Positions 25,974 through 43,114 of a stretch of DNA of 64,000 nucleotides are shown one piece after another. This DNA is from Acidobacteriota bacterium (lineage in GTDB: Bacteria > Acidobacteriota > Terriglobia > Terriglobales > Acidobacteriaceae). The DNA lies in NCBI GenBank assembly GCA_013289795.1, contig JABCZH010000005.1:62001-126000 (forward strand), written 5' to 3'. The position numbers were made by a program, and so were the translations under genes. Within the stretch, counting starts at the first letter, position 1, and every line of letters begins with the position of its first letter. Under the pieces are notes generated by a model. It was not told where the DNA came from. It was given only the letters and a program-made list of their open reading frames with translations, and searched no databases.

Positions 25974-26137
25974 TGAACGGAATGAATGAAACCGGGAGCG
26001 ATCCACTGCCAGCAATGGCACGAATTGCCGGACGGCTGGCCGACGCTGCCGTTTTCTCCGATCCAAATTCCGAGTTCGGCGATCCATCCGAAGCTACGCC
26101 CTACCAGGTGGACAGCCTGGTTTGAACGGGACTCTGC

Positions 26138-26560
26138 ATGGCTCAACCCTCAACGTCATCTTTTATATCTTCTATCCCTGAACTTCTGACGCAACGGCTA
26201 GCGCTGCTGGGTGCGCTGGCAGATTCGTTAGAGGAAGCCCAAGCGACGCTGACGACGGCCACGCCGGCAAAACTCGACCAGCATACCGCCCGACAGCGGG
26301 AACTCTGCCAGCAACTGTGCGTGCTGGCCAGCGGAGTTCCGGATGAGGCACCGGCTCAGATGCACTCCGGGTTGGCCAATGATTTGCAAGCCACAGCCCG
26401 ACGGGTGGCGGACTTGAACCGTAAGTACGCAGCGTTGCTGCGGCATCGACGCCGCACGGTGGACATTTTTTGCCGGGTGCTGGCGAGTTCGGGAACAACC
26501 TACCCAGCGCCCAGGCCGCTTTCCCGCCTGAGTTTGGAAGTGATAAGAGCGAAGGGATAA
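26138..26560 (+). CDS. flgN: Flagellar chaperone FlgN-like protein
   Basis: 140 residues, helical, lying between flgM and flgK as FlgN does in many bacteria. Segments such as LTQRLALLGALADSLEEAQATL, ARQRELCQQLCVLA and LNRKYAALLRHRRRTVDIFCRVL fit the FlgN helical hairpin and its C-terminal tail with tyrosine near the end. FlgN protects unassembled FlgK and FlgL from aggregation and hands them to the export gate. The assignment rests on position and helix pattern more than on conserved residues. It ends four bases before the old flgK ATG. Confidence 0.75.
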   Translation: MAQPSTSSFISSIPELLTQRLALLGALADSLEEAQATLTTATPAKLDQHTARQRELCQQLCVLASGVPDEAPAQMHSGLANDLQATARRVADLNRKYAALLRHRRRTVDIFCRVLASSGTTYPAPRPLSRLSLEVIRAKG

Positions 26561-26590
26561 AGGCATGGGCAGTCTGTACGGCTGCAGCCA

Positions 26591-27841
26591 GTGCTGGTCG
26601 AGAGCAATCCGATCGTGGTGGGTTCGGTGACTTATGGGACGGGGGTGTCGCTCGAGAAACTACAAAGCTTGCGCGATCCCATTCTGCAAATGCGCATTCA
26701 GGAAGAGACCCAGCAGCAAGGGCAGTTGAACGCAGCGCTGACGGCGATGCAGCAGGCGCAAGTGCAGTTCACCACCAGCAGCGGAGATATTGGCACGGAA
26801 ATCCCGAACTTCTTCAGCAGTCTGAACCAAATCTCGACTGACCCGACCAACCTGGCGTTGCGCCAGGGCGCGCTCACCGCGGCGGGGAACATGACGACGG
26901 CCTTCAACCACGTGGCCAACAACCTGAGCTCGCAAAGATTGAATCTGGATTCGAACGTAAGCCAGGATGTGGGCCAGGTGAATGTACTGACCGGCCAGAT
27001 CGCGACGCTGAACACCCAGATCAGCGAGTTGCAGGGGGTCAATCAGGACGCCAGCGCGCTGGTGGATCAACGCGACGTGCTCATCGGCAACCTTTCCAAA
27101 CTGATCGATGTTTCGACCATCAGGAGCGGTGACAGCCTGACTCTGACCACGTCGAATGGGACGGCGTTGGTGGTGGGTGGCCAGAGTTTCGCGCTCACCA
27201 CCCAGACCAACGCTTCCGGCCTGCAGGACATTTACGCGCAAGGCACGGACATTACGGCGAATCTGACTTCAGGGGACCTGGCAGGCCTGTTGCAGACCCG
27301 GGACCAGACCATTCCCGGCTTGCTCTCGAACCTGGACACCCTGGCGGCGGGAATCTCGAACGCGATGAACACCGCTAATCAGAAGGGTTTTGACCTGAAT
27401 GGAATTGCCGGCGGGAACCTGTTTGTTCCGCCGGCGGTGTCCGGGCAAGGGGCGGCGGCCGGCATGGCGGTGGCCATCGCCGATCCGGCGCTGATAGCGG
27501 CCAGTTCGGACGGGACACCGGGCAGCAACGGCAACCTGGCGGTGCTGGCGGCGGTGCAAAATCAGCCGGTGGCAGGCGGTCAAACCCCCACGGACTACTA
27601 TTCGAATATGGTTTTCACCGTGGGCAATGAGGTGTCCAATGACGCGGCAGAGTTGAGCTCCTCGCAGTTGATTCTGAGTCAATTGCAGGACCAACGGGCA
27701 AGCATTTCCGGGGTCTCGCTGGATGAAGAAGCCAGCAATACGGTGCAGTTTCAGCGCGCCTTTGATGCCGCGGCTGAAATCGTCACCACGGTCAATAACA
27801 TGCTGTTTGCGGTTATCAACATGGGGACATTAACCGGATGA
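26591..27841 (+). CDS. flgK: Flagellar hook-associated protein FlgK, N-terminus deleted out of frame
   Basis: From ESNPIVV and GTGVSLEKLQSLRDPIL onward this is a standard FlgK (hook-filament junction protein, HAP1), ending in the usual D0 helix with NTVQFQRAFDAAAEIVTTVNNML. The first about 45 residues that all FlgK proteins need (D0 coil with NNIANANTPGYSRQ) are absent. Just upstream an ATG at 26565, with AAAGG before it and directly after flgN, reads MGSLY, the normal FlgK beginning, then runs in another frame and stops at 26628-26630. The remaining frame has only a GTG at 26591. The reading frame stays open from 26561. Either a real deletion or an assembly error; the protein as drawn should not assemble. 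Confidence 0.8.
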   Translation: MLVESNPIVVGSVTYGTGVSLEKLQSLRDPILQMRIQEETQQQGQLNAALTAMQQAQVQFTTSSGDIGTEIPNFFSSLNQISTDPTNLALRQGALTAAGNMTTAFNHVANNLSSQRLNLDSNVSQDVGQVNVLTGQIATLNTQISELQGVNQDASALVDQRDVLIGNLSKLIDVSTIRSGDSLTLTTSNGTALVVGGQSFALTTQTNASGLQDIYAQGTDITANLTSGDLAGLLQTRDQTIPGLLSNLDTLAAGISNAMNTANQKGFDLNGIAGGNLFVPPAVSGQGAAAGMAVAIADPALIAASSDGTPGSNGNLAVLAAVQNQPVAGGQTPTDYYSNMVFTVGNEVSNDAAELSSSQLILSQLQDQRASISGVSLDEEASNTVQFQRAFDAAAEIVTTVNNMLFAVINMGTLTG

Positions 27842-28731
27842 GTTCGCTGAGAGTCAATCCGTATCCGATGCCTGACCTTCTGGCTGCGCTGGAGAATCTG
27901 CAGCAACAGCAGAATACGGCCACGCTGGAACTGTCCAGCGGTAGCAGTATCAACAAACCCTCTGACAACCCTGGCGGCGCTGCCCAGTTGACGCGGATCA
28001 GCGACTTGAGCAGTCAGGTGGATTCCTACCAGCGCAGCATCAGCAGCATCAGCGGCCAGTTCTCGACTGCAGGTTCCACGCTGGACTCGGTGGTGACGGT
28101 GCTGCAGAGAGCCATCAGCCTGGGAGTCGAAGGAGCTAATGGGACGCTTTCGAACAGCGACCGCGCGGGCGTGGCGACCGAAGTGATTGGAATCCAAAAC
28201 CAACTGCTCAGTCTGGCCAACACGTCGTATCAAGGACAGTATATTTTTGCCGGCACGGCCATCACGCAGCCTTTCGTAGTTGATCCCAGCCAGGCGTCGG
28301 GTGTGCGTTATACGGGTAATAACGGCACTAACAGTGTGACCATTGGAAACGGCTACCAGTTGCAAGCCAATGTGCCGGGTTCGCAAGTTTTTAACGGCCC
28401 TGGGGCGGACGTGTTCCAGGCCATCAACGATCTGATCACTTCGCTGCGGAGCAACACTGGCATCGACACGGCTGTAACCGAACTGGGCACTGCCGTCAAC
28501 TACGTCAGTGGGCAGCAGGTTTTCTATGGCAACGCGCTCAATCAGACGCAAAGCCAGCAAACCTATCTCAATACGCAGAGCCTGGGTCTCAGCCAACAGG
28601 AAAACACAGTTGGTGCGGCGAACCTGGCTGCGGTGGCCAGCCAAGTGGAGAATGACCAGATCGCTACTAGTGCGACCCTGGAAGCGATCGCGAAAATGCC
28701 ACAGACCAGCCTGTTCGATTATCTGAAGTGA
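27838..28731 (+). CDS. flgL: Flagellar hook-associated protein FlgL
   Basis: 297 residues, the second junction protein (HAP3) between hook and filament. The N-terminal D0/D1 coil (LLAALENLQQQQNTATLELSSGSSINKPSDNPGGAAQL) and C-terminal coil (AANLAAVASQVENDQIATSATLEAIAKM) match FlgL and are related to flagellin. YQGQYIFAGT marks the middle domain. Its ATG overlaps the flgK stop by four bases, so its translation should be coupled to flgK, which makes the flgK lesion relevant here too. Confidence 0.92.
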   Translation: MSSLRVNPYPMPDLLAALENLQQQQNTATLELSSGSSINKPSDNPGGAAQLTRISDLSSQVDSYQRSISSISGQFSTAGSTLDSVVTVLQRAISLGVEGANGTLSNSDRAGVATEVIGIQNQLLSLANTSYQGQYIFAGTAITQPFVVDPSQASGVRYTGNNGTNSVTIGNGYQLQANVPGSQVFNGPGADVFQAINDLITSLRSNTGIDTAVTELGTAVNYVSGQQVFYGNALNQTQSQQTYLNTQSLGLSQQENTVGAANLAAVASQVENDQIATSATLEAIAKMPQTSLFDYLK

Positions 28732-28833: not shown

Positions 28834-29187
28834 TCAGAGAGACTTCCTGCTGCCTTGTGCCCAAGCCGCTGCTTGGGCCACGTGGGTTCTCGCATTTTCT
28901 AGACGGGCTTTCTCGATTAGCAGGCGTCCCTGGAGCGAGGGTAGGATTTTTCCGAGCAGTTGTACATGGCTGCGATACTCGGAGATTTCATTTGCCGTCT
29001 CCGCATCCGGGGCGGCCCTGGGAAGGCTGCGCAAGCAGGCGGTCGAGTGCTGTAGCTCCGCCAGCAAATCGGTAAACTCGGTGGCCACCATGGCCGTGGG
29101 GCAATTGTGCTGGGCCGAAAGCCGGGACAAGCGGGCACGCAGCTGTTGATTTACGGTTCGCAAACTCTGGAACAGGGCGCTCGACAT
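28834..29187 (-). CDS. Small helical protein downstream of fliS, FliT-like
   Basis: 117 residues, almost all helical (ALFQSLRTVNQQLRARLSRL, FTDLLAELQHSTACLRSLP, EYRSHVQLLGKILPSLQGRLLIEKARLENARTHV). Its ATG overlaps the fliS stop (TGATG), which implies translational coupling. In many genomes the gene after fliS is fliT, the chaperone of FliD, and FliT is likewise a short helical bundle. The sequence itself is not diagnostic, so FliT-like is an inference from place and fold. Confidence 0.6.
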   Translation of the reverse strand: MSSALFQSLRTVNQQLRARLSRLSAQHNCPTAMVATEFTDLLAELQHSTACLRSLPRAAPDAETANEISEYRSHVQLLGKILPSLQGRLLIEKARLENARTHVAQAAAWAQGSRKSL

Positions 29188-29648
29188 CAGCCTGTCCAGT
29201 CCGCAAGACTACGGGTGGTGGCGGACGCGGTATTCACGGTGCGGGCGGTGACGGTCGGGACCGAGGCGGTTGTCTCTGCGCTTTTCACTTCACTCTCCAC
29301 CTTACTCCAGGCTTCCCGCAGGGAGAGGAGGTCGGTGATCTGCTGGGAAAGAATTGTCCGGGAGACGCGAAACTGGGCGATGGCGAGGTTGCCGCGCAGC
29401 TGATCGTAGAAGCGTTCAAGATTGAGGGCAACTTGCCCGCCAGCTTCTTTGTTCAAGCTGGACTGCAGGCAGGCGATGACGAAAATGGCGTGATTGATCT
29501 TGTTGGTGCGCAGTTCGACGTTATGATGTTCGATCGCATTCACAGCCTGTCGCAGGTCTTCGATCATTTGTTCGTACAGCAGGACGACGAGCCGCACCGG
29601 GTGAGCGCCACGCGCGGTGTCTTCACGGTATGCGGTTCTGGGGTTCAC
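29187..29648 (-). CDS. fliS: Flagellin export chaperone FliS
   Basis: FliS binds the C-terminal D0 helix of flagellin in the cytoplasm and keeps it unfolded for export. The typical start region VNPRTAYREDTARGAHPVRLVVLLYEQMIEDLRQA and the second helix pair HNVELRTNKINHAIFVIACLQSSLN are present. I choose the GTG at 29648, seven bases after the fliD stop, because FliS proteins start at this NPxxAY motif; the upstream GTG at 29702 would add 18 residues and overlap fliD. The C-terminus carries a Thr/Ala-rich tail of about 40 residues beyond the usual four-helix bundle. Confidence 0.88.
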   Translation of the reverse strand: MNPRTAYREDTARGAHPVRLVVLLYEQMIEDLRQAVNAIEHHNVELRTNKINHAIFVIACLQSSLNKEAGGQVALNLERFYDQLRGNLAIAQFRVSRTILSQQITDLLSLREAWSKVESEVKSAETTASVPTVTARTVNTASATTRSLADWTG

Positions 29649-29655
29649 GATTTGG

Positions 29656-31113
29656 CTAGAGTCCTGAAGAGAGAGTGGGGTTCGATCCGCCGGAGGCGCC
29701 ACCGATTCCGGAGGTACTCAGTGAGCCCAGGGTCTCGGTAATCGCCTGCAAGAGCAGCGGGTAGGATTGCAGGGAAGCGTTGACTGCTTCGTACTGTGTG
29801 GTCAACTGTAACTGCTCGCTGGTCAAGTTGGTTTCGAAGTTGGTGATGGCGGTAGTCAGGTCTTTCTGTTCCGCGTTGTTCTGGGTTAAATCCACGTTTA
29901 GCGGGCCCAGCGTGGGGTCGGTCAAGCTGGTCAGGTCGGTGTTGAAATTATTGGCGAAACCGGTTCCGGATGCATTCTGGAAGAAATTCAGCACTGCGGA
30001 AGGATTGGCAGCCAGGACTTGGGCAAAGGTTTGGCTATCGGGGGCTGGCGTAGATCCCACAGTGAGGGTGCCGTCGTTGTTGAGGTTGATGCCCAGGGAG
30101 GCCAGGTTGACAAGGCCACCGTTGCCGCCAATGGCGTAGGACGCGTCGGTCAGGATTCTGGACTGCAACGAGCGCAAGGAAATGTCGGCTTCGAGGGGAG
30201 GTGGGGGTGTGGCACCGGTGGGGTCAACGACGTATTGGGTGTTGATGGTGCTGACCACGGTGTTGTAAGCGGAAACGAAATTATTGACCGCGTTGGTGAT
30301 CTGGTTGGTATCGGGTCCGACGGTCAGCTGCACCGGATTGGCGGGCGATTGACTGGCCAGGCTGAGCGTGACTCCTTGAATGGCCCCAGTGACAGTATTG
30401 CTGCTGCTGCTGAAGGGTACGCCATCGATGGTCAGGATCGCGTTGGCGCCGCCCACGGGAGCGTCGAAGGTAAGAGTCGTGTTGCTGTTGTTGACGATGG
30501 CCAAAGCTCCACCGTTACCGGTGCTTTGGCTGAACAGGGCCAGGCGCGAACCGTTGGGGTCACTGACCACGCTGGCGGTCACTCCCCAGTTGTTGGCGGT
30601 GCTTTGGGTGTTGATGTACTTGGCCAGAGTATTGAGGGTGTCGTTGCTGCCTTGAGTGATGACAATATCGTGGACTGTGCCGCTGGCTCCTCCCACTTGC
30701 AGTTGGACGTCGCCATTGGTTTGCCCAGTCGCAAGGAAAGATGCATCGGGGCCGGCGGCGATGGGATCGGTATAGAGCGTGCCGGCGGTGGCCAGACTGG
30801 TCACCACGATCTGATGAGTTCCTGCAATGGCCCCGCTCTGGGCGGTCGCGGTCACGATTCCGGACTGGGAAGAGATTGCCGCCTGAGCGGTAAGCGCTCC
30901 CGTCGGATCGGCGAGCGCGGCGACTGCGGTCTGCAGGTTGGTGAGATTATTGTTGATTCCCGCGAGTAACCCGTCCTGGGTGGCAAAATTCGTCAACTGC
31001 CCCTGCCATACCGACAACTGGCCGCTCTGCCCGGAAATAATCCGTTGCACGATGGAATTTACATCAATGCCTTGTCCCGAGAGAATGGTAGATGGATTTA
31101 AGCTAATGCCCAC
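29656..31113 (-). CDS. fliD: Flagellar filament cap protein FliD
   Basis: 485 residues, HAP2, which caps the growing filament and helps flagellin fold. The N-terminal conserved region is ILSGQGIDVNSIVQRIISGQSGQL with coil LAGINNNLTNLQTAVAAL. A flagellin hook IN-type segment lies in the middle (DTLNTLAKYINTQ) and the C-terminal coil is QLTTQYEAVNASLQSYPLLLQAITETLGSL. GTG start with GGAGGAAA six bases before it. It heads fliD-fliS-orf on the minus strand, behind fliC and separated from it by a hairpin terminator. Confidence 0.93.
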   Translation of the reverse strand: MGISLNPSTILSGQGIDVNSIVQRIISGQSGQLSVWQGQLTNFATQDGLLAGINNNLTNLQTAVAALADPTGALTAQAAISSQSGIVTATAQSGAIAGTHQIVVTSLATAGTLYTDPIAAGPDASFLATGQTNGDVQLQVGGASGTVHDIVITQGSNDTLNTLAKYINTQSTANNWGVTASVVSDPNGSRLALFSQSTGNGGALAIVNNSNTTLTFDAPVGGANAILTIDGVPFSSSSNTVTGAIQGVTLSLASQSPANPVQLTVGPDTNQITNAVNNFVSAYNTVVSTINTQYVVDPTGATPPPPLEADISLRSLQSRILTDASYAIGGNGGLVNLASLGINLNNDGTLTVGSTPAPDSQTFAQVLAANPSAVLNFFQNASGTGFANNFNTDLTSLTDPTLGPLNVDLTQNNAEQKDLTTAITNFETNLTSEQLQLTTQYEAVNASLQSYPLLLQAITETLGSLSTSGIGGASGGSNPTLSSGL

Positions 31114-31335
31114 GGTCTTTTCCTCCGCCGCATCGGTTGCAGGTTGACTTCAATCCTTTAGAGATAAGGTCGGCAACAGCGAAAGTTGCGACCGATCGAT
31201 TTCTGCGATTTGAAACAACTCCTGAACTGGGACAAAGTCTGGGCCATGCGGTTCCGGTTGACAGCAGACTCAGTGGACGCGGGAAAGTGAATGCGGAGTT
31301 CAAGCTCACATTGAGTTACTCGGGTAAAGCCGGCA

Positions 31336-31358
31336 GGAGGCAGGCTGGGCCTGCCTCC
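31336..31358 (-). terminator. Hairpin terminator after fliC
   Basis: GGAGGCAGGC (31336-31345) and GCCTGCCTCC (31349-31358) form a perfect 10-bp stem with a 3-base loop, 15 bases after the flagellin stop. The T-tract following on the minus strand is short, so termination may be partial. Confidence 0.6.
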
Positions 31359-31372
31359 CGTCCGAGTTGAAT

Positions 31373-33235
31373 TTACTGCAACAGTTTCAGTACGAGCTGC
31401 TGTTGCTGGTTGGCCTGAGCCAGAGCGGAGATGCCGGTCTGCTCGAGGATGGAATACTTGGTGAGGTTCGCCACGGCGGCCGGAATGTCGGCGGCCGTGA
31501 TGGTGTTTTCGGCTGAGGTGAGGTTCTGTACCTGGCTGTTGATGACGTTGCTGGCTGCGGTCAGCCGGTTGACGCTGGCACCCAAGGTGCCGCGAGTGCT
31601 GGCCACGTTCGAGATGGCTTGATTGATCAAGGTCAGAGCGGTTTGCGCGTCGTTCTGAGTGTTGAGGTCGGTGGTAGACAGGTTGACGGACTGACCACCG
31701 CTGCCGTTAGTGAGCGTGGTTGTGGACAGGCCGCCGATAGTTACTGCAATCTGGCTTGATCCGATGGCGGTTGAGTCACTCAGAAAAATGTTGGTGGAGG
31801 TTGAACCCGTCGTAAGCGGGTTGCTGAGGGTACCGAGAACAGTCCCGGTGGTAGTTGCACCGACCGCCAGGTCGCCCTCGTTGTTGGGATCGACGACCAC
31901 CAGGTTGCCGGACTGAAGGTAGGCGGTCAGGCCCGCCGGATCGGTGGCGGGATTGTTGATGGCGCTGATCAGGTCTCCAATGGTGTTGGTGTTGCCGACG
32001 TTGGAGGTGTAGCTAAAAGTCTTGCCACTGGCAGTGAAGCTGTAGATCTTGCTGGCGCCCAGTACGGTGGCGGTGGTCAGGCCGCCGGCGTTGCCGACGA
32101 GTTCGTTAGTATCGGAGGTTGAGGTGCCGACGGTGTTGGGAGTGGCGAACTTGGTGGGAGCGCCCTCGACGGGAGCGCCAAGCACGGTGTCGGTAGTGCT
32201 GACCGCGAGGTCAGCGCGGTTCAACGGATCGGTGATTTGAAGTACGCCGCTGACCAAAGCTGCCTTCGCGCCGACAATGGTGTCGCCGTTAATGGCGTTG
32301 ATCAGATCCTGCACGGTGGAGGTCGCAGCGGCATTTGGAGTAAAAGCGGCTGCGCCCAGCACGCCGCCGGCAGAGTCGGCTGTGGCGAGATCCTGGTTAT
32401 TTTGGAGATCGACGACTTGGAGGTTTCCACCCACCAGTTGGGCCTGATAGCCGCCGTGGTTGCCAACGTCGGTGCCGGCGACGGTAACATTGGCGGTGCT
32501 GGCGCCAGTGTTGATGGCGGTGATCAGTTCGCCGACGGTGGCCCCGGCTGCCGCAGTATAGGTGGTGGTGAGGCCGCCGCTGCCTCGGGTCGAGGTGAGG
32601 ACTTCGGCGACCGCAAGAGCAGTGCCGCTGGTGAGACCGCCGACAGCGCTGGCGGTTTCGTTCAGGTTTTGGCCACTGGTGGTGGCAGCGGTGTAAGTGA
32701 AAGTTTGACCTCCCGCGGTCACTGAGGTTGTGCCGCCCACGTTCAGCACGTCTCCCAGGCTCAGGGTGCCAGCGCTTGCGGGAGTATCCTGCGCGTTGAG
32801 GTTGGGCGCTGAGCCGCTCTGAAACACCGCCTGTCCGTTATAGGTTGTGGCGGTGCCGATACGGTTAATTTCTGCCAGGATGGAGGCATACTGGGCCTGG
32901 ATGGCGGTGCGCTGTCCGTTGGAAACCGTGCCCGTGGCCGATTCGGTAGCCAGGGTCACTGCGGTGTTCAGCAAGGTGGTGACCTGGGCGAGCGCGCCGT
33001 CGGCGAGCTGCAATTGGCCGACACCATTATTCGCGTTGGAAACGGATTGGGTGAGGGCGCTGATATTGGCCTGCAAGCCATTGGCAATGGACAAGCCGGC
33101 GGGGTCATCGGCGCCGCTGTTGATGCGGGACCCTGAAGACAACTGTTGCAGGGTGTTGCTCAAGGCTGTGCTAGTGAGAGTCAGCTGATTTTCCGCCGCC
33201 AGGGACGGAATGTTGTTCAAGATTCCTAATGGCAT
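31373..33235 (-). CDS. fliC: Flagellin with long repetitive central domain
   Basis: 620 residues. The N-terminal D0/D1 (NTLQQLSSGSRINSGADDPAGLSIANGLQANI) and C-terminal D1/D0 (ALTLINQAISNVASTRGTLGA, NRLTAASNVINSQVQNLTSAENTITAADI, QTGISALAQANQQQQLVLKLL) are fully conserved. The centre holds three related blocks of the form T-x-x-D/E-L-I-x-A-I-N...G-x-L-Q-V-x-D...VLG, like the flagellin hook IN motif, which would be exposed on the filament. A very good ribosome site, AAGGAG, lies seven bases before the ATG, and a sigma-28 promoter is about 100 bases upstream. High expression is expected. It is the only flagellin gene here. Confidence 0.95.
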   Translation of the reverse strand: MPLGILNNIPSLAAENQLTLTSTALSNTLQQLSSGSRINSGADDPAGLSIANGLQANISALTQSVSNANNGVGQLQLADGALAQVTTLLNTAVTLATESATGTVSNGQRTAIQAQYASILAEINRIGTATTYNGQAVFQSGSAPNLNAQDTPASAGTLSLGDVLNVGGTTSVTAGGQTFTYTAATTSGQNLNETASAVGGLTSGTALAVAEVLTSTRGSGGLTTTYTAAAGATVGELITAINTGASTANVTVAGTDVGNHGGYQAQLVGGNLQVVDLQNNQDLATADSAGGVLGAAAFTPNAAATSTVQDLINAINGDTIVGAKAALVSGVLQITDPLNRADLAVSTTDTVLGAPVEGAPTKFATPNTVGTSTSDTNELVGNAGGLTTATVLGASKIYSFTASGKTFSYTSNVGNTNTIGDLISAINNPATDPAGLTAYLQSGNLVVVDPNNEGDLAVGATTTGTVLGTLSNPLTTGSTSTNIFLSDSTAIGSSQIAVTIGGLSTTTLTNGSGGQSVNLSTTDLNTQNDAQTALTLINQAISNVASTRGTLGASVNRLTAASNVINSQVQNLTSAENTITAADIPAAVANLTKYSILEQTGISALAQANQQQQLVLKLLQ

Positions 33236-33497: not shown

Positions 33498-33761
33498 ATG
33501 ATCCAACTGACTCGGCTGAATAACAGTTCTCTGATCGTGAACTCGGACTTGATCAAGTTTGTGGAGCAGTCCCCGGACACCGTCATCACGCTTTTGAACG
33601 GCGAAAAGATCATCGTGCGCGAGAGTGCCGATCAGGTGCTGGAGCGGATCGTGCTGTTTCGCCAGTTGGTATTGCAGAATGCCCCGGCTGCGGCCGGTCA
33701 TTTCAGCCCATTGGCTGCAGCGGCGTGGGGCAACGAAACCAAAGATCAAACCGAGAGGTAA
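33498..33761 (+). CDS. flbD: FlbD/SwrD-family flagellar protein
   Basis: 87 residues. MIQLTRLNNSSLIVNSDLI, FVEQSPDTVITLLNGEKIIVRES and VLERIVLFRQ are the full signature of the small FlbD family found in front of motA in many bacteria; the Bacillus homologue SwrD increases motor torque. The start at 33498 follows GGGAG; an upstream in-frame start at 33471 is less likely. It precedes motA by six bases, which fits a role with the stator. Confidence 0.88.
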   Translation: MIQLTRLNNSSLIVNSDLIKFVEQSPDTVITLLNGEKIIVRESADQVLERIVLFRQLVLQNAPAAAGHFSPLAAAAWGNETKDQTER

Positions 33762-33767
33762 GCGCTC

Positions 33768-34580
33768 GTGGATAAGGCGAGCTGGGGTGGCGTCGCACTG
33801 GGGCTGAGTGGGATTGTGGGAGGCCTGCTGCTCGAAGGCGGGCGCTTATCACAGGTGTTACAGCCGACGGCCGCCATGATCGTGCTCGGCGGCACTGCCG
33901 GGGCAGTGTTGATCCAGTTTCCGCTGCCAGTGGTGCTCGAAGCGGTGCACCGGTTGGGAGATGTTTTCATGCCCCCGAGTCACGATCCGGCAGCGATGGT
34001 TCAGGAGTTGGTGCGCTATGCCAACCAGGCCCGGCGCAAGGGGATCGTATCTCTGGATGAGGAACTGGAGAAGATCACGGAGCCTTTTCTCAAGAAATCG
34101 CTGCAACTGGCGGTGGACGGTACGGAACCGCAAGAGCTGCGCACCATGATGGAGCTGGAGCTCGAGAACAAGGCTGATATGGAGGAAAGAATTCCGCAGG
34201 TGTACGAGTCGGCGGGCGGGTTTTCACCCACGATCGGGATCATTGGGGCGGTGCTTGGTTTGATCCAGGTGATGCAGCACCTGGACAAGATTGACGAGGT
34301 GGGGCGAGGCATCGCGGTGGCGTTCGTGGCCACGATCTATGGGGTAGCGGCGGCTAATCTCTTTCTCCTACCTGTGGCCGGCAAACTCAGAATCCGGATC
34401 CGCGAAGAAGAAGTGTTGCGGGAAATGACGCTGGAGGGAGTGATTTCGCTCCTGGAGGGGATGAATCCTCGAATGGTGGAAGCCAGGCTGCTGAGTTTTC
34501 TGGGGGAAAGCAAGCCCGATGACAAGGCGAAGATCACGGCCAAGGTGAAAGCGAAAGGCAAAGGCGCGGGCGCCTCATGA
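33768..34580 (+). CDS. motA: Flagellar motor stator protein MotA
   Basis: 270 residues, the channel half of the proton- or sodium-driven stator. Membrane helices are seen near 10-28, 32-50, 147-170 and 182-202, with the large cytoplasmic loop (about 60-145) that touches FliG and the conserved SAGGFSPTIGIIGAVLGLIQVM segment. GTG start. The C-terminal tail is rich in lysine and alanine. It overlaps motB by four bases. Whether it uses protons or sodium cannot be told from what I see. Confidence 0.93.
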   Translation: MDKASWGGVALGLSGIVGGLLLEGGRLSQVLQPTAAMIVLGGTAGAVLIQFPLPVVLEAVHRLGDVFMPPSHDPAAMVQELVRYANQARRKGIVSLDEELEKITEPFLKKSLQLAVDGTEPQELRTMMELELENKADMEERIPQVYESAGGFSPTIGIIGAVLGLIQVMQHLDKIDEVGRGIAVAFVATIYGVAAANLFLLPVAGKLRIRIREEEVLREMTLEGVISLLEGMNPRMVEARLLSFLGESKPDDKAKITAKVKAKGKGAGAS

Positions 34581-35365
34581 GACGGCGAAGGAAGGCTGCT
34601 CCCCACGCGAGCCACGAACGCTGGCTGGTTTCGTACGCGGATTTCATCACCCTGCTATTTGCCTTTTTTGTGGTGCTGTACTCGACTGCACAGGTTGACA
34701 AGCGCAGGATGGTGGAACTGGCGGCGGCCATTCAAGAAGGCTTTGAACAAATGGGGACCAATCCGACCTACTATGCCGCGATTCCCCCGGAGAGTCTGCC
34801 GGTTGCGGTGCCGAAAGCGGTTCCAGCGATTCTACCTCCCAACATTCCTCAAAGTAATGATCTCGACGCTTTGCGAAAAGACCTGGAGAAAGCGCTGGCG
34901 GGGGAGATCGCAAGGGGCCAAGTGGCGTTGCGCAACACTCCACAGGGTCTAGTGGTCAGCCTGCGGGAAGCTGGCTTCTTCGACAGCGGTGCGGCGGGAA
35001 CGAAAGCCAGTTCGCAACCGGCGTTTGGCCGCATGACGACAGTGCTGCGGGAACGCGGCTACAACATCCGCATCGAAGGCCATACTGATGACGTCCCCAT
35101 TCACAATTCGCAATACACCTCCAACTGGGAACTGTCGACGGCGCGGGCCACTGAAATGGTCCGCGTGCTGATCACGCGTTACGGATTTTCCCCGGAATCG
35201 CTGTCGGCGGCGGGGTTCGCCCAGTTTCATCCCATCGCGCCGAATGCCACAGAAGCGGGGCGGGCGCACAATCGCCGGGTGGATGTGGTGATTCTGGCTG
35301 AGCCTCCAGCGGGCGCCCTGCGGAATCCAACCCATCCGGAGAAGCCTTCACCGGAGCGGAAATAG
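34577..35365 (+). CDS. motB: Flagellar motor stator protein MotB
   Basis: 262 residues. One membrane helix (about 20-40) starts with [17 protein letters not shown], holding the aspartate that carries the ion. A plug/linker region follows, then an OmpA-type peptidoglycan-binding domain ([40 protein letters not shown]) that fixes the stator to the wall. The order flbD-motA-motB is typical. It ends about 90 bases before the sigma-28 promoter of mcp, so the chemosensory genes can be transcribed separately. Confidence 0.94.
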
Positions 35366-35455: not shown

Positions 35456-35482
35456 TAAAGTCCGGGTCTTTCACGCCGATAT
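35456..35482 (+). promoter_or_regulatory. FliA (sigma-28) promoter of the mcp-che operon
   Basis: TAAA at 35456-35459, exactly 15 bases, then GCCGATAT at 35475-35482, 7 of 8 to GCCGATAA. This is the best match of the window. It lies inside the open frame before the mcp ATG and so argues that translation starts at 35505. Confidence 0.8.
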
Positions 35483-35504: not shown

Positions 35505-37319
35505 ATGTTCGATCGAATCAAGCTGACCCCAAAGATCGGTATTTTCATTGCAGCAGTCTTAACGATGAGTTCGGCCCTGGGATTCTTTATTACCGAGCGC
35601 CGCCTCCATCGTCAAGCCGAGGAGGGTTTCGTTGACAAGCTGCGAAAAACCGATGCGATGGCCAGTCGTCTGCGCTCATTCCTTTCTGCCAATGCAGATG
35701 CGAATGCTCCCCGCCACGAGTTCAAAGAGTTGAAGCAGGTCCCGGTGGTGGTGGCGTGGAGCGTAGCCCGCGAGTATGCCGAGTCACAAGGAATGAAGTT
35801 CAGTACTCCGTCGCTTCATCCCCGCAATCCAGCCAATAATCCAGATGAGTTCGAGGTCAAGGCTCTGCACGCATTTGAGAACGATCCCGGCCTGCAGGAA
35901 TACTACAACCGGACAACCCTCAGCGGAACAGAAGTTATGCGCTTTGCGGTGCCGGTGCGACTCACGGCTGACTGTTTGAATTGCCATGGAGATGCAGCGA
36001 CCGATTCGGGGCCCCCCAGTTATGGCAAAGCGGGCATGAAAGCCGGCGATTTGAGAGGCGCTTTCGTGGTCAGCGCTCCGCTGACCGCGCTAAATGAGGC
36101 CAGCAATTCGAACAACCTGGCGCTCCTGGCCACTGATTTAGGAGTGCTGTGTTCCGGCGTAGTAGCGGTTTTCTTTGTGGTGAGGCGCATTGTCGTCAAA
36201 CCCGTCGTCGCCTCGGCCAAGTTGGCCGAGGAAATTGCAGCCCATAATCTGGCGGTGGCTGACATAGAAATCACGTCGGAAGATGAACTGGGCCAGGCGG
36301 GGGCGGCGCTGAACCGGATGAAGAACAATCTGCGGGAAATGATTCAAGCCATCGCCGGGACCGCCGAACACGTGGCCAGCGCCAGCGAAGAGATCTCCGC
36401 GTCCGCCAACCAGCAATCGCAAAGCGCTGAAACCCAGAAAGACCAAGCGACCCAGGTAGCGACGGCGATGCAGGAGATGTCATCGACAGTATTGCAGGTT
36501 TCGGAAAACTCGAACCGGGCGGCGGAAGCTTCGCGTAAGGCTGCAGAAACTGCACGTCACGGCGGCAACATCGTGCAGGGCACCCTGGGCAAGATGCGGG
36601 TGATTGCGGAATCGGTGGGCGGTACGGCAAGAAAGATGGAGGAATTGGGGAGGAGTTCGGACCAGATTGGGCGCATCATCGCAGTGATTGACGACATTGC
36701 CGACCAGACCAACCTGCTGGCGTTGAATGCCGCGATTGAAGCGGCGAGAGCGGGAGAGCAGGGACGAGGGTTTGCGGTGGTGGCGGATGAAGTGCGCAAG
36801 CTGGCGGAACGGACGACCACGGCGACAAAAGAAATCGCGCAGATGATCAAGAACATACAAGACGAGACCAAGGCGGCGGTGACAGCGATGGAGGCGGGCA
36901 GCCAGCAGGTGGAAGCCGGGGTGAAGTCGACGGCGCAGGCGGGGGAGTCGCTGAAGGAAATTATTGAGATGGCGGAAGAGGTGGGGGAAATGATCACCCA
37001 CATTGCGACGGCGGCGACGGAGCAGTCGGCGGCGAGCGAAGAAGTGAACCAGAACATGGATCAGATTGCGAAGCTGGTGAGGGAATCGGCGATGGGGGCG
37101 CAGCAGTCGGCGAAGGCGTGTCAGGACCTGTCGGGGCTGGCGCTGGATCTGCAAAAGATGGTGGAGAATTTCGATCTGGAGGGCAAGAACGGCCAGGGTC
37201 GCAGCCGATCCGGCAACGGGCAGGGGCCGGAAGGTCAATCCGGAGGCGGGTTGGGCGGGAGTTCAGCCGGGACAGTGCGGACAGGGGCGGGGAAGGCGTT
37301 CGCGGCGGCAGCCCGCTAG
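35505..37319 (+). CDS. Methyl-accepting chemotaxis protein with c-type haem sensor domain
   Basis: 604 residues. Helix 1 (about 8-28), a periplasmic sensor (about 30-203), helix 2 (about 204-226), HAMP, then a complete signalling hairpin with tip [20 protein letters not shown] (about 408-428). The sensor matches the Tll0287/DUF3365-like PAS family and contains CLNCH at 157-161, a covalent haem c site, followed by GAFVVSAPL. It should sense oxygen, NO or redox state. The start at 35505 has GGAGG before it and a sigma-28 promoter; 35376 would lie upstream of that promoter. First gene of the operon mcp-cheW-cheA-cheR-HDOD-cheB; the cheW ATG is one base after its stop. Confidence 0.9.
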
Positions 37320-37865
37320 ATGGCGGAAGCAGAGATCATGGAATCGCAAGCCAAGGCGAGGGAGGCTCCCAGCGGTGCAGCCAGCCTGCATGGCGCCGAT
37401 CTGCGCCATCGTGACTTGTTGCAACTGGTGAGTTTCCACGTGGGCGGCGAGGAGTTTTGCCTCGACATTTTGCGGGTGCAGGAAATCATTCGTATTCAGG
37501 CTCTCACCCGGGTGCCAAATTCCCCTGATTTCGTAGAGGGTGTGATCAACCTGCGAGGGAAGGTCATCCCAGTGATTGCGTTGCGTAAACGGTTCGGGCT
37601 GGAAGCACTGGCCCACGACCGACAGACTCGCATTGTGGTGAGCGAGGTCAAGGGGACGGTACTGGGATTCATTGTGGATTCGGTTTCCGAAGTGCTGCGC
37701 ATCCCGGCCGATACCGTCGAGCCGCCCCCGCGGTTGGGCAAGGTAGGGCGCGAATACGTATCGGGGGTGGGCAAGCTGGACAGCCGGCTACTGATCTTGC
37801 TCGATGTCGATCGTATGTTGAGCGACTCCGAAGACGGGATTGCCGGACCGAACTCGCAGGCCTAG
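37320..37865 (+). CDS. cheW: Chemotaxis coupling protein CheW
   Basis: 181 residues. It bridges receptor and CheA. The conserved double SH3-like fold is seen in LLQLVSFHVGGEEFCLDILRVQEIIRI, VPNSPDFVEGVINLRGKVIPVIALRKRFGL and GFIVDSVSEVLRI. A disordered N-terminal extension of about 30 residues is longer than usual. It begins directly after the receptor stop and ends where cheA begins, so stoichiometric co-translation is likely. Confidence 0.95.
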   Translation: MAEAEIMESQAKAREAPSGAASLHGADLRHRDLLQLVSFHVGGEEFCLDILRVQEIIRIQALTRVPNSPDFVEGVINLRGKVIPVIALRKRFGLEALAHDRQTRIVVSEVKGTVLGFIVDSVSEVLRIPADTVEPPPRLGKVGREYVSGVGKLDSRLLILLDVDRMLSDSEDGIAGPNSQA

Positions 37866-39728
37866 TTGGTCGAGCGCTGCAGGCCGCTGCAGACCAAGGA
37901 TGCAGACCCAGTGGAAAACGATTTCTTACAAGATCCGGCGATGATTCAGGAGTTTCTGACGGAGTCAGAAGAGCTCTTACAAGGGATGGACCAGGACATG
38001 ATCACACTGGAGTCCACTCCTGATGATGCGGAGTTGCTCAACCGGATCTTTCGCGCGTTGCATACCATCAAAGGCACTTCTGGATTTCTGAATTTCGAGC
38101 CGGTGGTGCGCCTGGGCCATCGCGCGGAGGACGTGCTCAACGTACTGCGCCGCGGCGAACTGCGTCTGACCCGGCGCATCACGGATGCCTTGCTTGCCGC
38201 GCGCGACCAGTTAGGACAAATGCTGAGCGATATCCGGCGAGGTGGGCTGAAGACCTACGACCTCGATGCGCTGCTGGAAGAATTGGAAGCGGCGCAGAAA
38301 CCCGAGGGGCCACCGCTTCGTCTGGGTGAAATTCTGGTCGCCGAAGGGGTGATCGAACGGCAAGCTCTGGAAAGCATTTTGCAGGAACAAGCTGCTTTCC
38401 CTCAAGGTCCGAAGCTGGGTGAGTTGCTGGTGAGGAAAGGCTTGGCCTCGACCGCTGAAGTGGGCAACGCGCTGGCCAGTCAAACCGTTGGCGCTGCCCG
38501 GGAGGTTGCGGCAAGGGAGGGACAGACCGTACGAGTCGATTCCGCCAAGCTGGATGAATTAATCAACCTGATTGGAGAGTTGGTGCTGGAGCGAAACCGG
38601 CTAAACCAGCTTACCCGCGACCTGACCTCCGGGCGGGTGGCCGCCGATGCTCTGCATCCGGCTTTCAGCCTAAGCGCAGCGCGTCTGAGTTTCGTGACGG
38701 AGGAGTTGCAAACCGCATGTCTGAAGACTCGCATGGTTCCGATTGACATGGTCTTCCGCAAGTTTCCCCGCCTGGTACGCGACCTCGCCGGCAGCCTGCA
38801 GAAAGAAGTCGAGCTTGAGGTCAGAGGGCAGAGTACCGAGATTGACAAGACGATGGTGGAGTTGCTGGGCGATCCGCTGGTGCATCTGGTGCGTAATTCT
38901 CTTGATCACGGTCTCGAAATGCCGGATGTGCGCGAGCGCCACGGGAAACCGCGAAAAGGCACCATCCGCCTGGAAGCGCGACAAGAGGGCGATCAGATCG
39001 TGATCAGCATTGCCGACGATGGGGCCGGCATCGACCCGGAGCGGGTGCTGCGCAAGGCGGTGGAAAAGGGTTTGGTGACCGCCGAGAGGGGACGGCACCT
39101 TGTACAGCGCGAGATCCTTGATTTCATTTTTCTTCCCGGCTTCAGCACCGTGGAAAAAGTGAGTAACCTCTCGGGGCGCGGTGTGGGCATGGATGTGGTG
39201 CGCTCGAACCTCAAGCGCATGAATGGAAGCATTCAGCTGGAGAGCAATGTGAACAAGGGTACAACGGTGCTGCTGCAATTGCCGCTGACGCTGGCCATCC
39301 TGCAAGTGTTGCTGGTGCAGGTGTCAGAGGAAATCTACGCACTGCCTTTGCGGTTGGTGCTGGAAACCTCCCGGGTCCGGAAAGACGAGGTGCACCTGGT
39401 GGAAGGGATCGAGGTTCTGCGGCTGCGAGGCGAGACGCTGCCGCTGCTGCGTTTGCGGAAGATGTTCGCGACTGGTGCGGACGTTAATGGATCGGGGGGC
39501 GAGAACGTGGTGGTGCTGACCATTGGCGAGAAACGGGTCGCATTGATGGTGGACCGGCTGATTGGGCAGGAGTCCACCGTGATCAAGCCGCTGGGATCTT
39601 ATCTTCACAATTGCGTCAGCATTGCTGGAGCTACAGTGGGCGGGGACGGGCGGGTGCGGTTAGTACTGGATCCAGCGGGATTGCTTGCCTCCGCCCAAGG
39701 CCTGACAGTTCGGGAAACCGTGCAATGA
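37866..39728 (+). CDS. cheA: Chemotaxis histidine kinase CheA with an inserted helical module
   Basis: 620 residues from a TTG; a GTG at 37911 is an alternative start. The HPt domain has the phosphorylated His in ALHTIKGTSGF (H66). Where the CheY-binding P2 domain usually lies, a module with two copies of LGE(I/L)LV-x-x-G is found (about 151-205), like the small MshEN/GspE N-terminal helical domain. Dimerisation, ATPase (HLVRNSLDHG near 340, DDGAGIDP, GRGVGMDV) and CheW-like domains follow intact. No cheY lies in the operon, so the target of phosphotransfer is CheB or a receiver elsewhere. The stop overlaps the cheR ATG. Confidence 0.93.
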   Translation: MVERCRPLQTKDADPVENDFLQDPAMIQEFLTESEELLQGMDQDMITLESTPDDAELLNRIFRALHTIKGTSGFLNFEPVVRLGHRAEDVLNVLRRGELRLTRRITDALLAARDQLGQMLSDIRRGGLKTYDLDALLEELEAAQKPEGPPLRLGEILVAEGVIERQALESILQEQAAFPQGPKLGELLVRKGLASTAEVGNALASQTVGAAREVAAREGQTVRVDSAKLDELINLIGELVLERNRLNQLTRDLTSGRVAADALHPAFSLSAARLSFVTEELQTACLKTRMVPIDMVFRKFPRLVRDLAGSLQKEVELEVRGQSTEIDKTMVELLGDPLVHLVRNSLDHGLEMPDVRERHGKPRKGTIRLEARQEGDQIVISIADDGAGIDPERVLRKAVEKGLVTAERGRHLVQREILDFIFLPGFSTVEKVSNLSGRGVGMDVVRSNLKRMNGSIQLESNVNKGTTVLLQLPLTLAILQVLLVQVSEEIYALPLRLVLETSRVRKDEVHLVEGIEVLRLRGETLPLLRLRKMFATGADVNGSGGENVVVLTIGEKRVALMVDRLIGQESTVIKPLGSYLHNCVSIAGATVGGDGRVRLVLDPAGLLASAQGLTVRETVQ

Positions 39729-40618
39729 CCACCGCGGCGGTTTCTCAGCGCACCCCCGAGACGGCCTGGCGGCCACCCAGCCCGCAATTGATGCAAATCC
39801 GCGATCTGGTGTATCAGGTGGCAGGCATCTTCCAGCCGGACAACAAACTGCGCCAGTTCGAAGACCGCTGCCAGAAGAGGATGCAGGCGTTAGGAGTAAG
39901 CAGCCTCCGTGAGTACTACCAATGCCTCACGGTGAGGCCCAGTCGCCAGACTGAGTTGGTGAGTTTGCTCAATGAGATCACCGTCGGGGAGACTTTTTTC
40001 TTTCGCAACCAGCCCCAGCTCGATGCCCTGCGCAACGTGGTCCTGACCCGCATTGTCGACGCCAGAAAGAAAATGTCACTGCGCCATATACGGATCTGGA
40101 GCGCGGGCTGCTCGACCGGGGAGGAGCCTTACACGCTGAGCATCATGCTGATGGAGGAGCTGGCCGGGCGTCTGCAAGGATGGACGTTCGAGATTGTGGC
40201 CACGGACTTGAACGAGCGTTCTGTAGCGCATGCGAAGGCGGGCCTATACGGGAATTACAGCACTCGTAATCTGACGCCCGAAACCACCAAGAAATACTTC
40301 AGTCCGGCAGGGGAAAACTTGCAAGTGAACGCGCAGGTCAAGACCCATGTGTCGATCACCCGGGTCAACTTTCTGGATGACGCACGCATGGTTTTCTTGA
40401 AGGGCTTCGACATCGTCATGTGCTGCAACGTGCTGATCTACTTTGACGTGCAGTCGAAGCGCCGGGTGATCCAGCATTTCTATAACAGCCTGCTGGGGCA
40501 CGGGTACCTTTTTCTGGGGCACTCGGAATCGCTTTACGGAGTCAACGATGACTTTCGCTTGGTGCACTTGCCTTCCGCGACCGCGTACGTTAAGGCCGAA
40601 ACCAAGGTGATCCTCTAG
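39725..40618 (+). CDS. cheR: Chemoreceptor methyltransferase CheR
   Basis: 297 residues. It methylates receptor glutamates using S-adenosylmethionine. The N-terminal helical domain is followed by NEITVGETFFFRN, the SAM-binding IWSAGCSTGEEPYTL, ATDLNERSVAHAKAGLYG and FDIVMCCNVLIYFD. The start ATG overlaps the cheA TGA as ATGA. The track extends further upstream, but that would lie inside cheA. No C-terminal TPR is present, so it is the plain form. Confidence 0.95.
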   Translation: MTTAAVSQRTPETAWRPPSPQLMQIRDLVYQVAGIFQPDNKLRQFEDRCQKRMQALGVSSLREYYQCLTVRPSRQTELVSLLNEITVGETFFFRNQPQLDALRNVVLTRIVDARKKMSLRHIRIWSAGCSTGEEPYTLSIMLMEELAGRLQGWTFEIVATDLNERSVAHAKAGLYGNYSTRNLTPETTKKYFSPAGENLQVNAQVKTHVSITRVNFLDDARMVFLKGFDIVMCCNVLIYFDVQSKRRVIQHFYNSLLGHGYLFLGHSESLYGVNDDFRLVHLPSATAYVKAETKVIL

Positions 40619-40625
40619 GTGGAAT

Positions 40626-41525
40626 ATGAGTGATGAGCGGCAACAACGACTCCGACAGCGGCTGGAAAATCTGGAGGAGATGCCCACCATTCCGGTGGTG
40701 CTGGCCCCGCTGTTGCGCTATTTGGAGCAGCCCCTGGACACTCTGGATCTGGAGCAGGTGGTGGAATTGATTTCGCAGGACAAGTCTCTGGCTGCGCAGT
40801 GCCTGCAAATGGCTAACTCCCCGCTGTATGGGCGCTGGACGGCGGTGGACAACCTTCGTACCGCGGTCATCGGGTTGGGAATGCAACGGATGCGGGACGT
40901 TGCGCTCTCCTGCACGTTGCTGACGCTGGTGCCCAAGGGGCGGACAAGCGTCGATCCGGTGGTGTTCTGGGAACATTCCCTGGGCTGCGCGCTGGTCTGC
41001 CGCCAGTTTGCCCAGAAGATCGGGTTTCCTGATCCCGCGAAGGCCTATCTGGGAGGGTTGCTGCACGACATCGGAGTGGTGGCGGAATTGTGCGTGGTAC
41101 CAGAGGAATTTCAGGTTGCGTTGGAGTTGGCTCGAAGCCAGGGCATTCCGCTCCATGAAGCCGAGGCAATTACTCTCGGACTCACCCACTGCGACAGCGG
41201 GAAGATTGTGGCGGAGAAATGGCACTTGACTGAGGATCTGGTAGCCGTGGCGGGATGTCACCACGATCCGCAGACCGCCCGAACCCACCGCGACCTGGTG
41301 GCGCTGGTTTCACTGAGCGACTTGCTATGCCGCATGAGCGGCCTGGGATATGGGTATCCCGAAGCGCGACAGGTCACTTTTACGGAGGAGCCGGGGTTCG
41401 CCCTGTTGCTCGAGGAGTGCCCCGCGCTGAGGACGTTCGACTGGGCGCGGTTCACTTTTGAATTGGAAGCCTACATGGAGGAGGTCTACCGCCTGGTGGA
41501 GCTTCTTTATCGAGTGCCGCAGTGA
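40626..41525 (+). CDS. HDOD-domain protein within the che operon
   Basis: 299 residues with the HDOD fold (PTIPVVLAPLLRYLEQP, LISQDKSLAAQCLQMANSPLYG, LRTAVIGLGMQRMRDVALS, GGLLHDIGVVAELC, GCHHDPQTA). HDOD proteins resemble HD phosphohydrolases; here an HD pair is kept (LHDIG), but whether the metal site is complete is unclear. Some HDOD proteins act in signalling and motility control by protein interaction. Insertion between cheR and cheB, with the cheB start overlapping its end, suggests that it works with the chemosensory array. Substrate and partner unknown. Confidence 0.85.
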   Translation: MSDERQQRLRQRLENLEEMPTIPVVLAPLLRYLEQPLDTLDLEQVVELISQDKSLAAQCLQMANSPLYGRWTAVDNLRTAVIGLGMQRMRDVALSCTLLTLVPKGRTSVDPVVFWEHSLGCALVCRQFAQKIGFPDPAKAYLGGLLHDIGVVAELCVVPEEFQVALELARSQGIPLHEAEAITLGLTHCDSGKIVAEKWHLTEDLVAVAGCHHDPQTARTHRDLVALVSLSDLLCRMSGLGYGYPEARQVTFTEEPGFALLLEECPALRTFDWARFTFELEAYMEEVYRLVELLYRVPQ

Positions 41526-42622
41526 ACGACTCCGGCGAAAACGTCCGCCCGGTCAGCGTATTGGTGGTGGATGACAGCGCTTTTATGCGCACTGCCCTGA
41601 GCCGGATGATCGACTCGGACCCGGCTCTGAGGGTTGCGGGTACAGCTCAAAACGGAATGCAGGCGCTGGAGAAGATCGTCGAGTTGCAACCCGATGTGGT
41701 CACGCTGGATGTGGAAATGCCGCGGCTGAATGGCATCGAGACCTTGAAACGCATCATGCAAGAGTTTCCGCGGCCCGTCATTATGGTCAGTTCGCTTACC
41801 CAGGCGGGGGCGGAGAGCACGCTCGAAGCACTGGACATTGGAGCTTTCGACTATGTTTCCAAGCAAGAGTCGTTTGCCTCACTGGACATCGTTAACATCC
41901 GCCACGATCTGGTGGCCAAGATCAGAGCGGCGGCGGAGATGAATCGACGGTGCACCGTTGTCAGGGTTGCGAAACCGCCGATGCCCGCGAGAATTGCGGC
42001 GTCCCACGCCCCGCTGGTTCAGCCTGCGGTGGTGGCTCTGGGGACTTCCACGGGAGGACCCAAAGCTCTGCAACAGATGCTGCCAACGTTGCCCCGAGAT
42101 CTCTCGGTGGGAGTGTTGGTGGTGCAGCACATGCCGATGGGCTTCACCGGACCGTTCGCGAACCGGCTGAATCAGCTTTGTCAGGTTGCGGTGAAGGAAG
42201 CGACGCACGACCAGACCATCGAGCCGGGCGTGGTCTACATTGCGCCCGCCGGTCAACACCTGACGGTGATGCGCCGAAGTCCCGCGAAAGTTGTGACCCG
42301 GCTTTCGGCTTCTCCCGAGGGCACTCTGCACCGGCCATCGGTCGATGTGATGATGCTCTCGGTGGCGGAAGTGTTTGGAGCGCTGGCGATGGGAGTCATC
42401 ATGACCGGGATGGGAGCGGACGGAGTCGAAGGCATGAAGGCGATTGGGAAAGCTGGCGGCTTGACGGTGGGGCAGGATGAAAATAGTTGTACAGTTTATG
42501 GAATGCCACGGTCCTGCGCCGAAGCCGGCGTGTTGCAACGAGTTGTCCCGTTGGATCAAATTCCGGGAGAGATATTGCAGGCGACTCGCTACCAGGAGCG
42601 GACGCATAAAGTGTCGGTGTGA
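41522..42622 (+). CDS. cheB: Chemotaxis response regulator methylesterase CheB
   Basis: 366 residues. The receiver has the acidic pair DDSAF, phospho-acceptor D63 (VTLDVEMP) and SK-type conserved residues. The esterase domain keeps the catalytic serine S176 (GTSTGGPKAL), H203 (VQHMPMGF) and D300 (GMGADGVEG). It removes methyl groups from receptors, or deamidates them, after phosphorylation by CheA. The GTG start overlaps the HDOD stop by four bases. It is the last gene of the operon and the only receiver in it. Confidence 0.95.
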   Translation: MNDSGENVRPVSVLVVDDSAFMRTALSRMIDSDPALRVAGTAQNGMQALEKIVELQPDVVTLDVEMPRLNGIETLKRIMQEFPRPVIMVSSLTQAGAESTLEALDIGAFDYVSKQESFASLDIVNIRHDLVAKIRAAAEMNRRCTVVRVAKPPMPARIAASHAPLVQPAVVALGTSTGGPKALQQMLPTLPRDLSVGVLVVQHMPMGFTGPFANRLNQLCQVAVKEATHDQTIEPGVVYIAPAGQHLTVMRRSPAKVVTRLSASPEGTLHRPSVDVMMLSVAEVFGALAMGVIMTGMGADGVEGMKAIGKAGGLTVGQDENSCTVYGMPRSCAEAGVLQRVVPLDQIPGEILQATRYQERTHKVSV

Positions 42623-42655: not shown

Positions 42656-43114
42656 TCAAAGAAAGACTTTTTCTTCCGATTCCAGAACTTGCCGGACTTT
42701 GCCCAGTAGAGACTCCGCCGAGAAAGGTTTAGGCAGGTACGACATCTGGCCGGCTGTGAGGCCGTATCTAGTTACTGTGTTCTCGGGATAGCCTGAGATA
42801 AAGATTGCCTTCAGGGCCGGGCGAGCGGCGCGCAGCTCCTTCGCCAGGGCAGGGCCATTTTGGCCGGGCAGAACCACGTCTGAGAGCAAGAGCTGCACAC
42901 CACCCTGCTGGCGGCGGAACGCGGCCTGTGCTTCGGCTGCATTGCGGGCTCGCAAGACACGATAGCCTTCACCCTCCAGAATGTCGCAGGCGGCCTCGCG
43001 CACGAAGGCTTCGTCTTCGACAACCAGAATGGTGTTGCGCGCTATGGACAAAGAATCACAAAGGTCGATTGCCGGTTGGATTTCATCCGCGGTAGTTTGA
43101 GTCGCATTCAACAT
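42656..43114 (-). CDS. Single-domain response regulator receiver
   Basis: 152 residues. One receiver domain with the acidic pair (ILVVEDEAF), phospho-acceptor aspartate in LLLSDVVLPGQNG, FISGYPE and the lysine in YLPKPFS. No output domain. The sequence resembles receivers at the end of hybrid histidine kinases more than CheY. Because it sits convergent to cheB and no cheY is present, it could serve as a phosphate target of this CheA, but the opposite strand and sequence type do not prove it. Confidence 0.85.
   Translation of the reverse strand: MLNATQTTADEIQPAIDLCDSLSIARNTILVVEDEAFVREAACDILEGEGYRVLRARNAAEAQAAFRRQQGGVQLLLSDVVLPGQNGPALAKELRAARPALKAIFISGYPENTVTRYGLTAGQMSYLPKPFSAESLLGKVRQVLESEEKVFL

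Follow-up and report, generated by a model that had tools for sequence, protein, structure and literature searches.

The stretch of DNA analysed here (the window, 64,000 nucleotides of contig JABCZH010000005.1) belongs to a Terriglobales-type acidobacterium, whose genome assembly comprises 4.67 Mb in 33 contigs and is 99.9% complete. It contains six chemosensory genes in the order mcp, cheW, cheA, cheR, HDOD and cheB (Table 1), all of which are confirmed by Pfam matches, as an earlier note on the same DNA had described them. The absence of cheY from the operon, pointed out in that note, is likewise borne out. Its picture of genes packed with overlaps or gaps of at most seven bases holds for the other junctions, but probably not for cheW and cheA: Translation of cheA probably starts at GTG 37911 rather than at TTG 37866, because the relatives start at the equivalent residue, because the sequence AAGGA sits 10 bases upstream, and because a codon-based gene caller picked the same start, and the gap between cheW and cheA therefore amounts to about 45 bases. 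The limits of the operon also have to be widened, since positions 35505 to 42622 enclose the six genes but the unit starts earlier, with flbD, motA and motB directly upstream. The complete gene order was found again in two related loci (L033 and L088) and, slightly altered, in about ten further ones, and because the whole order recurs among related loci a chance arrangement is excluded. The earlier note knew of no described system with exactly this gene set, and our literature search found none either, although every component is known singly.

Table 1. Features of the chemosensory operon and its flagellar surroundings (positions within the window)
Feature	Positions	Strand	Evidence
flgM, flgN, flgK, flgL	25674-28731	+	FlgM 53 bits, FlgK_D1 177 bits, Flagellin_N 57 bits
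fliS, fliD, fliC (flagellin)	29187-33235	-	Pfam FliS, FliD_N/C, Flagellin_N/C
flbD	33498-33761	+	PF06289 89 bits
motA	33768-34580	+	PF01618 98.7 bits
motB	34577-35365	+	MotB_plug and OmpA
sigma-28 (FliA) type promoter TAAAG-N14-GCCGATA, TAAAGTCCGGGTCTTTCACGCCGATA	35456-35481	+	pattern, 0 mismatches
mcp, methyl-accepting chemoreceptor	35505-37319	+	PF11845 88.5 bits, HAMP, MCPsignal; PDB 5B82 match
CLNCH haem c attachment motif	35973-35987	+	sequence; CLxCH in 5/5 sensors compared
cheW	37320-37865	+	PF01584 151 bits
cheA (P1, MshEN module, P3, P4, P5)	37911-39728	+	Pfam; start from relatives
MshEN (c-di-GMP-binding type) module, P2 position of CheA	38319-38483	+	NF053729 40.8 bits; model match 8PFA/5HTL, probability 1.00
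cheR	39725-40618	+	PF01739 175 bits
HDOD protein, complete HD-type metal ligand set	40626-41525	+	PF08668 166.8 bits; 72-sequence alignment; model
cheB	41522-42622	+	PF01339 and PF00072
stand-alone receiver, converging on cheB	42656-43114	-	PF00072; recurrent beside cheB or HDOD

With flbD, motA and motB as well as flg and fli genes upstream of it (the Pfam score of FlgN is under the cut-off, 24 vs 30.5), the operon forms part of a flagellar cluster. The sigma-28 site, the sole perfect match in the window, ends 23 bases ahead of the receptor start codon, so that both the neighbouring genes and the promoter place the operon in flagellar chemotaxis. When up to one mismatch and a spacer of 14 or 15 bases were allowed, a sigma-28-like site was detected before the first che gene in eight of ten relatives (L058, L060, L061, L065, L073, L078, L079 and L083); at the same threshold none was found before the che genes of the other two, L082 and L088. 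In L073 (position 6622) and L083 (position 6741) the site, with one mismatch, is kept before cheW though these genomes lack FlhA. The genome harbours two flagellar systems, one on contigs C5 and C13 and one on C22, with two FliM genes, two FlhA genes and two FliA genes, the latter both above the cut-off of TIGR02479. The C22 cluster includes flbD, motA, motB, cheR, HDOD and cheB; CheA, CheW and a receptor are absent between these genes. The best explanation of the locus is that it serves one of these two flagellar systems as its main chemotaxis operon. It shares with flagellar chemotaxis in general the gene set (CheA, CheW, CheR, CheB, CheY, CheX, MotAB and FliM), the clustering, the sigma-28 promoter, the FliM N-terminus and the CheX phosphatase, but differs in that cheY and cheX sit in the basal-body cluster, that an MshEN domain replaces P2 in CheA, and that an HDOD gene is inserted between cheR and cheB.

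The earlier note had supposed that the output of the system may differ from that of a standard CheA-CheY pair. The rest of the genome speaks against this: Contig C13 carries FlhA, FliA, FliM, FliN, an MshEN protein, CheY, CheX and basal-body genes, and its cheY, next to fliM, fliN and cheX, is preceded by a sigma-28 site of the same kind as the one in the window. The encoded CheY is 62% identical to that of a related operon (L035), in which cheY stands first, and the FliM N-terminus reads LNQQEIDAM, resembling the known CheY-binding peptide. Alternatively, CheA might signal to the convergent receiver next to cheB, or through the HDOD protein, instead of to CheY. In its favour, the operon lacks cheY, and by our count about 15 related loci, some of them in genomes without FlhA, have the convergent receiver next to cheB or HDOD. 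We nonetheless regard this alternative as very improbable, given that CheY, CheX and FliM are encoded in the same genome, with the same promoter type, and that cheY heads a related operon. As CheY, CheX and FliM are all encoded in the genome, a standard CheA-CheY output is the simplest and likeliest reading, in which the pairing of this CheA with this CheY is one that we infer, because the genome possesses a second CheA gene (on contig C8) besides the copy in the window.

The receptor combines an sCache_heme sensor (Tll0287/DUF3365) with HAMP and MCPsignal domains. Its PF11845 score lies far above the cut-off of 24.1, the domain is the only one of its kind in the genome, and the sensor matches the Tll0287 structure. 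The two cysteines of CLNCH are the only ones of the sensor region, as in the four related sensors that we aligned with it, and cytochrome c assembly proteins are encoded in the genome; the haem c receptor of the earlier note is thus supported at the sequence level. Haem c is carried by the Tll0287-type family (PMC12889525), and the Geobacter chemoreceptors GSU0582 and GSU0935 display the same periplasmic CXXCH domain, transmembrane helices, HAMP and MCPsignal. Compared with the known Tll0287-type proteins, the present receptor lacks the extra cysteine that could serve as axial ligand, and it belongs to a flagellar che operon. Met51 and Met97 are conserved across the five sensors and could be haem ligands; methionine is a ligand in GSU0582/GSU0935 (PMC8396549). 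The sensor probably is loaded with haem, and NO would be the favoured ligand, because a TM-HAMP member of the family without axial cysteine releases NO slowly, in a sensor-like manner (PMC12889525), with redox sensing as the next candidate. A haem input conserved across the relatives was considered and rejected, as the receptors of L058 and L035 have other sensor domains. Three further operons (L034, L060 and L061) are without receptor. Since related operons carry other sensors, the input is exchangeable.

In CheA, P1, P3, P4 and P5 are all present (Pfam Hpt, H-kinase_dim, HATPase_c and CheW), and a Pfam P2 family was found neither in the window CheA nor in any of 26 related, HDOD-linked CheAs. 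Between P1 and P3 lie RLGEILVAEGVIERQALESILQEQ, a linker of seven residues, and KLGELLVRKGLASTAEVGNALASQ. The earlier note had seen an LGEILV-type module here in place of P2, which is supported, and we identify the module, from its motifs and predicted fold, as an MshEN domain with an eroded signature. The published c-di-GMP motif, RLGxx(LVI)(LVI)xxG(LVI)(LVI)xxxxLxxxLxxQ, occurs in two copies separated by five residues (PMC5013675). The first motif in the window agrees with this pattern at every specified position, while the second departs from it three times, with Lys for Arg and with Ala and Val at hydrophobic positions (Val for Leu). NF053729 scores above its cut-off of 38 in the window CheA as well as in L058, L065, L073, L078, L083 and L088, and it matches 16 of the 26 HDOD-linked CheAs at E<=0.001; PF05157 gives no match on the window CheA, although the same profile does hit three other proteins encoded in the genome. 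An AlphaFold2 model of the module has a core pLDDT of about 80, and its first six Foldseek matches are all PilF (GSPIIB) or MshE in complex with c-di-GMP, at 34-50% identity and a probability of 1.00; the E-values are weak (0.05-0.2) owing to the small size of the domain. The module thus has the two 24-residue motifs and the four-helix fold of the MshEN domains of MshE, PilF GSPIIB and NfrB, but differs from these in its place at the P2 position of a flagellar CheA, in the longer linker and in the second-motif lysine.

Whether a domain of this kind has retained its ligand is another matter. The arginine of the first motif is replaced by Thr or Ala in L065, L073, L078, L079 and L083, and the CheAs of L060, L061 and L082 possess only a low-complexity linker at the position of the module. 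P2-less CheAs are known, and the module might accordingly be a leftover helical linker without nucleotide binding, in an otherwise ordinary flagellar chemotaxis system. The loss of the first-motif arginine in most relatives and the low-complexity linker in three of 11 related CheAs are what this explanation would predict; against it stand the exact first motif of the window CheA, a profile score above cut-off and an MshEN fold retained in the predicted model, and we consider it rather unlikely. Binding of c-di-GMP by the module of the window is, on motif and model, likely. For the group of relatives it is uncertain, and it is not a universal trait, because the arginine has been lost or the module replaced in several of them. 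A single sentence of the 2016 study of the domain names MshEN fusions to CheA and CheX (PMC5013675); our literature search found no experimentally tested MshEN-CheA example and no direct precedent for c-di-GMP in connection with the P2 domain of CheA. Each of the two flagellar clusters of the genome also encodes a small MshEN protein (L141:12654-13361 and L143:8295-8951), flanked by fliN on one side and by cheY or cheX on the other. The NF053729 scores are 38.5 bits for the one between fliN and cheY and 36.4 bits for the other (cut-off 38), and these proteins may form another c-di-GMP link to the flagellum.

The HDOD protein matches known members of its family in its predicted structure (Z 30 to 3HC1, 24.7 to SadB) and is related in fold to HD-GYP proteins (4MCW, Z 11.6). 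Residues H117, H147, D148, H188, H212 and D232 are invariant in all 72 HDOD sequences aligned, and H213 is found in 71. The HD metal ligands of HD-GYP proteins are thus complete, but the GYP motif and the lysine of HDxGK were not found in the sequence, which reads HDIGVV and has no GYP after HHD. It is conceivable that the protein has enzymatic activity, as a phosphodiesterase or phosphohydrolase, and lowers c-di-GMP or another nucleotide locally at the CheR/CheA array, a possibility that concerns the HDOD protein only and is compatible with our explanation of the operon. The invariant ligands and the relationship to HD-GYP would fit such an activity. Besides the missing GYP and lysine, two precedents argue against it: DVU0330, an HDOD protein with HD residues, does not hydrolyse c-di-GMP and has only weak bis-pNPP activity (PMC4114195), and the HDOD of SadB from P. 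fluorescens, which binds c-di-GMP with a Kd of 0.23 uM, is held not to hydrolyse (PMC6543031). We therefore think an active enzyme unlikely. Most likely the protein is a sensor of a nucleotide, perhaps of c-di-GMP, or else a phosphohydrolase of weak activity, and our best guess is a regulator tied to CheR or to the flagellar regulon. It shares its fold with SadB, GsmR, 3HC1 and DVU0330, and several HDODs affect motility; in contrast to these it is a stand-alone protein, fixed beside cheR, with a full set of HD ligands (GsmR is reported without the His). Control by c-di-GMP at CheR has a precedent in MapZ, the CheR-binding c-di-GMP adaptor of Pseudomonas aeruginosa, to which PMC12564702 lists a reference, but MapZ is a PilZ protein unrelated to HDOD, and an interaction of HDOD with CheR is suggested here by gene order alone. 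For HDOD proteins acting with CheR or CheA, our literature search found no direct precedent.

A search of 84,980 species genomes yielded 79 loci with this HDOD gene, 75 of them acidobacterial. Among these 75, HDOD directly follows cheR in 61 and motB in five, is joined to a regulator in five and stands alone in four. Flagellated genomes also display the arrangements flbD-motA-motB-cheR-HDOD and flbD-motA-motB-HDOD, with no cheA detected between. The co-occurrence of the HDOD gene with this type of CheA, suggested for a check by the earlier note, is therefore not what the loci reveal: The HDOD gene goes with cheR and is also found where cheA is missing, and the CheA of L035 contains an MshEN-like stretch at a locus without HDOD. 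HDOD as companion of one CheA type was consequently rejected, and the gene is no general feature of relatives with flagella either, since orthologs are present in nine of 121 genomes of the class and FlhA in 59. The 15 genomes tested that carry flbD-motAB-HDOD or the complete operon on the same contig all have FlhA; the 14 tested members of the group in which an OmpR-type regulator, either joined or intact, lies upstream all lack it. The HDOD reading frame stays open in genomes without FlhA, and the dN/dS values there (0.06-0.15 between the closest pairs, rising to as much as 0.25 in pairs that include the diverged L080) only suggest constraint, because synonymous sites are near saturation.

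The scheme that we regard as fairly probable combines a haem/NO input, a CheA tuned by c-di-GMP, an output through CheY, and an HDOD protein that is perhaps a nucleotide sensor linked to CheR. The haem c Cache receptor with its periplasmic sensor probably responds to NO or redox state and would signal via HAMP to CheW and CheA, with CheR and CheB adapting the receptor. CheA would phosphorylate the CheY of the flagellar basal-body cluster, and this CheY would act on FliM and be dephosphorylated by CheX. The MshEN domain in place of P2 probably binds c-di-GMP and would tune the kinase or the phosphotransfer to the swim-or-settle state of the cell; the direction of this effect, too, is something we can only infer. 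A bolder version, in which c-di-GMP at the P2 position gates the phosphotransfer to CheY and a metal-bearing HDOD couples the same nucleotide to CheR, would amount to direct control at two points beneath an NO-sensing haem receptor, and we offer it tentatively, as a rather doubtful extension. The parts of this system are known, but we found no study of their combination and, above all, none of a flagellar CheA that has MshEN at the P2 position. c-di-GMP meets chemotaxis at CheR, through MapZ, and, via PilZ domains, at receptors or motors. A c-di-GMP-type domain in the P2 place of a flagellar CheA would let the messenger act directly on the kinase. HDOD is a domain without established mechanism, and the fixed cheR-HDOD pair, kept even where FlhA is missing, offers a concrete candidate partner for it.

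In 11 relatives, all without FlhA, an OmpR-type response regulator is joined in frame either to the C-terminal part of MotB (L062, L063, L064, L070, L073 and L083) or to HDOD (L067, L080, L089, L090 and L127). The join always lies after NVVDVY, before the last 30 or so residues of the regulator, and HDOD is joined at about residue 32 or 67; Pfam analysis of the joins in L063 and L080 revealed a truncated Trans_reg_C followed by OmpA or HDOD. These joins look like old deletions of flagellar genes; the MAGs stem from several studies, although an assembly artefact is possible. A decayed copy of the operon is seen in L036/L087, where a short ORF resembling the C-terminus of CheA and an internally deleted cheB accompany an intact cheR and an intact HDOD gene.
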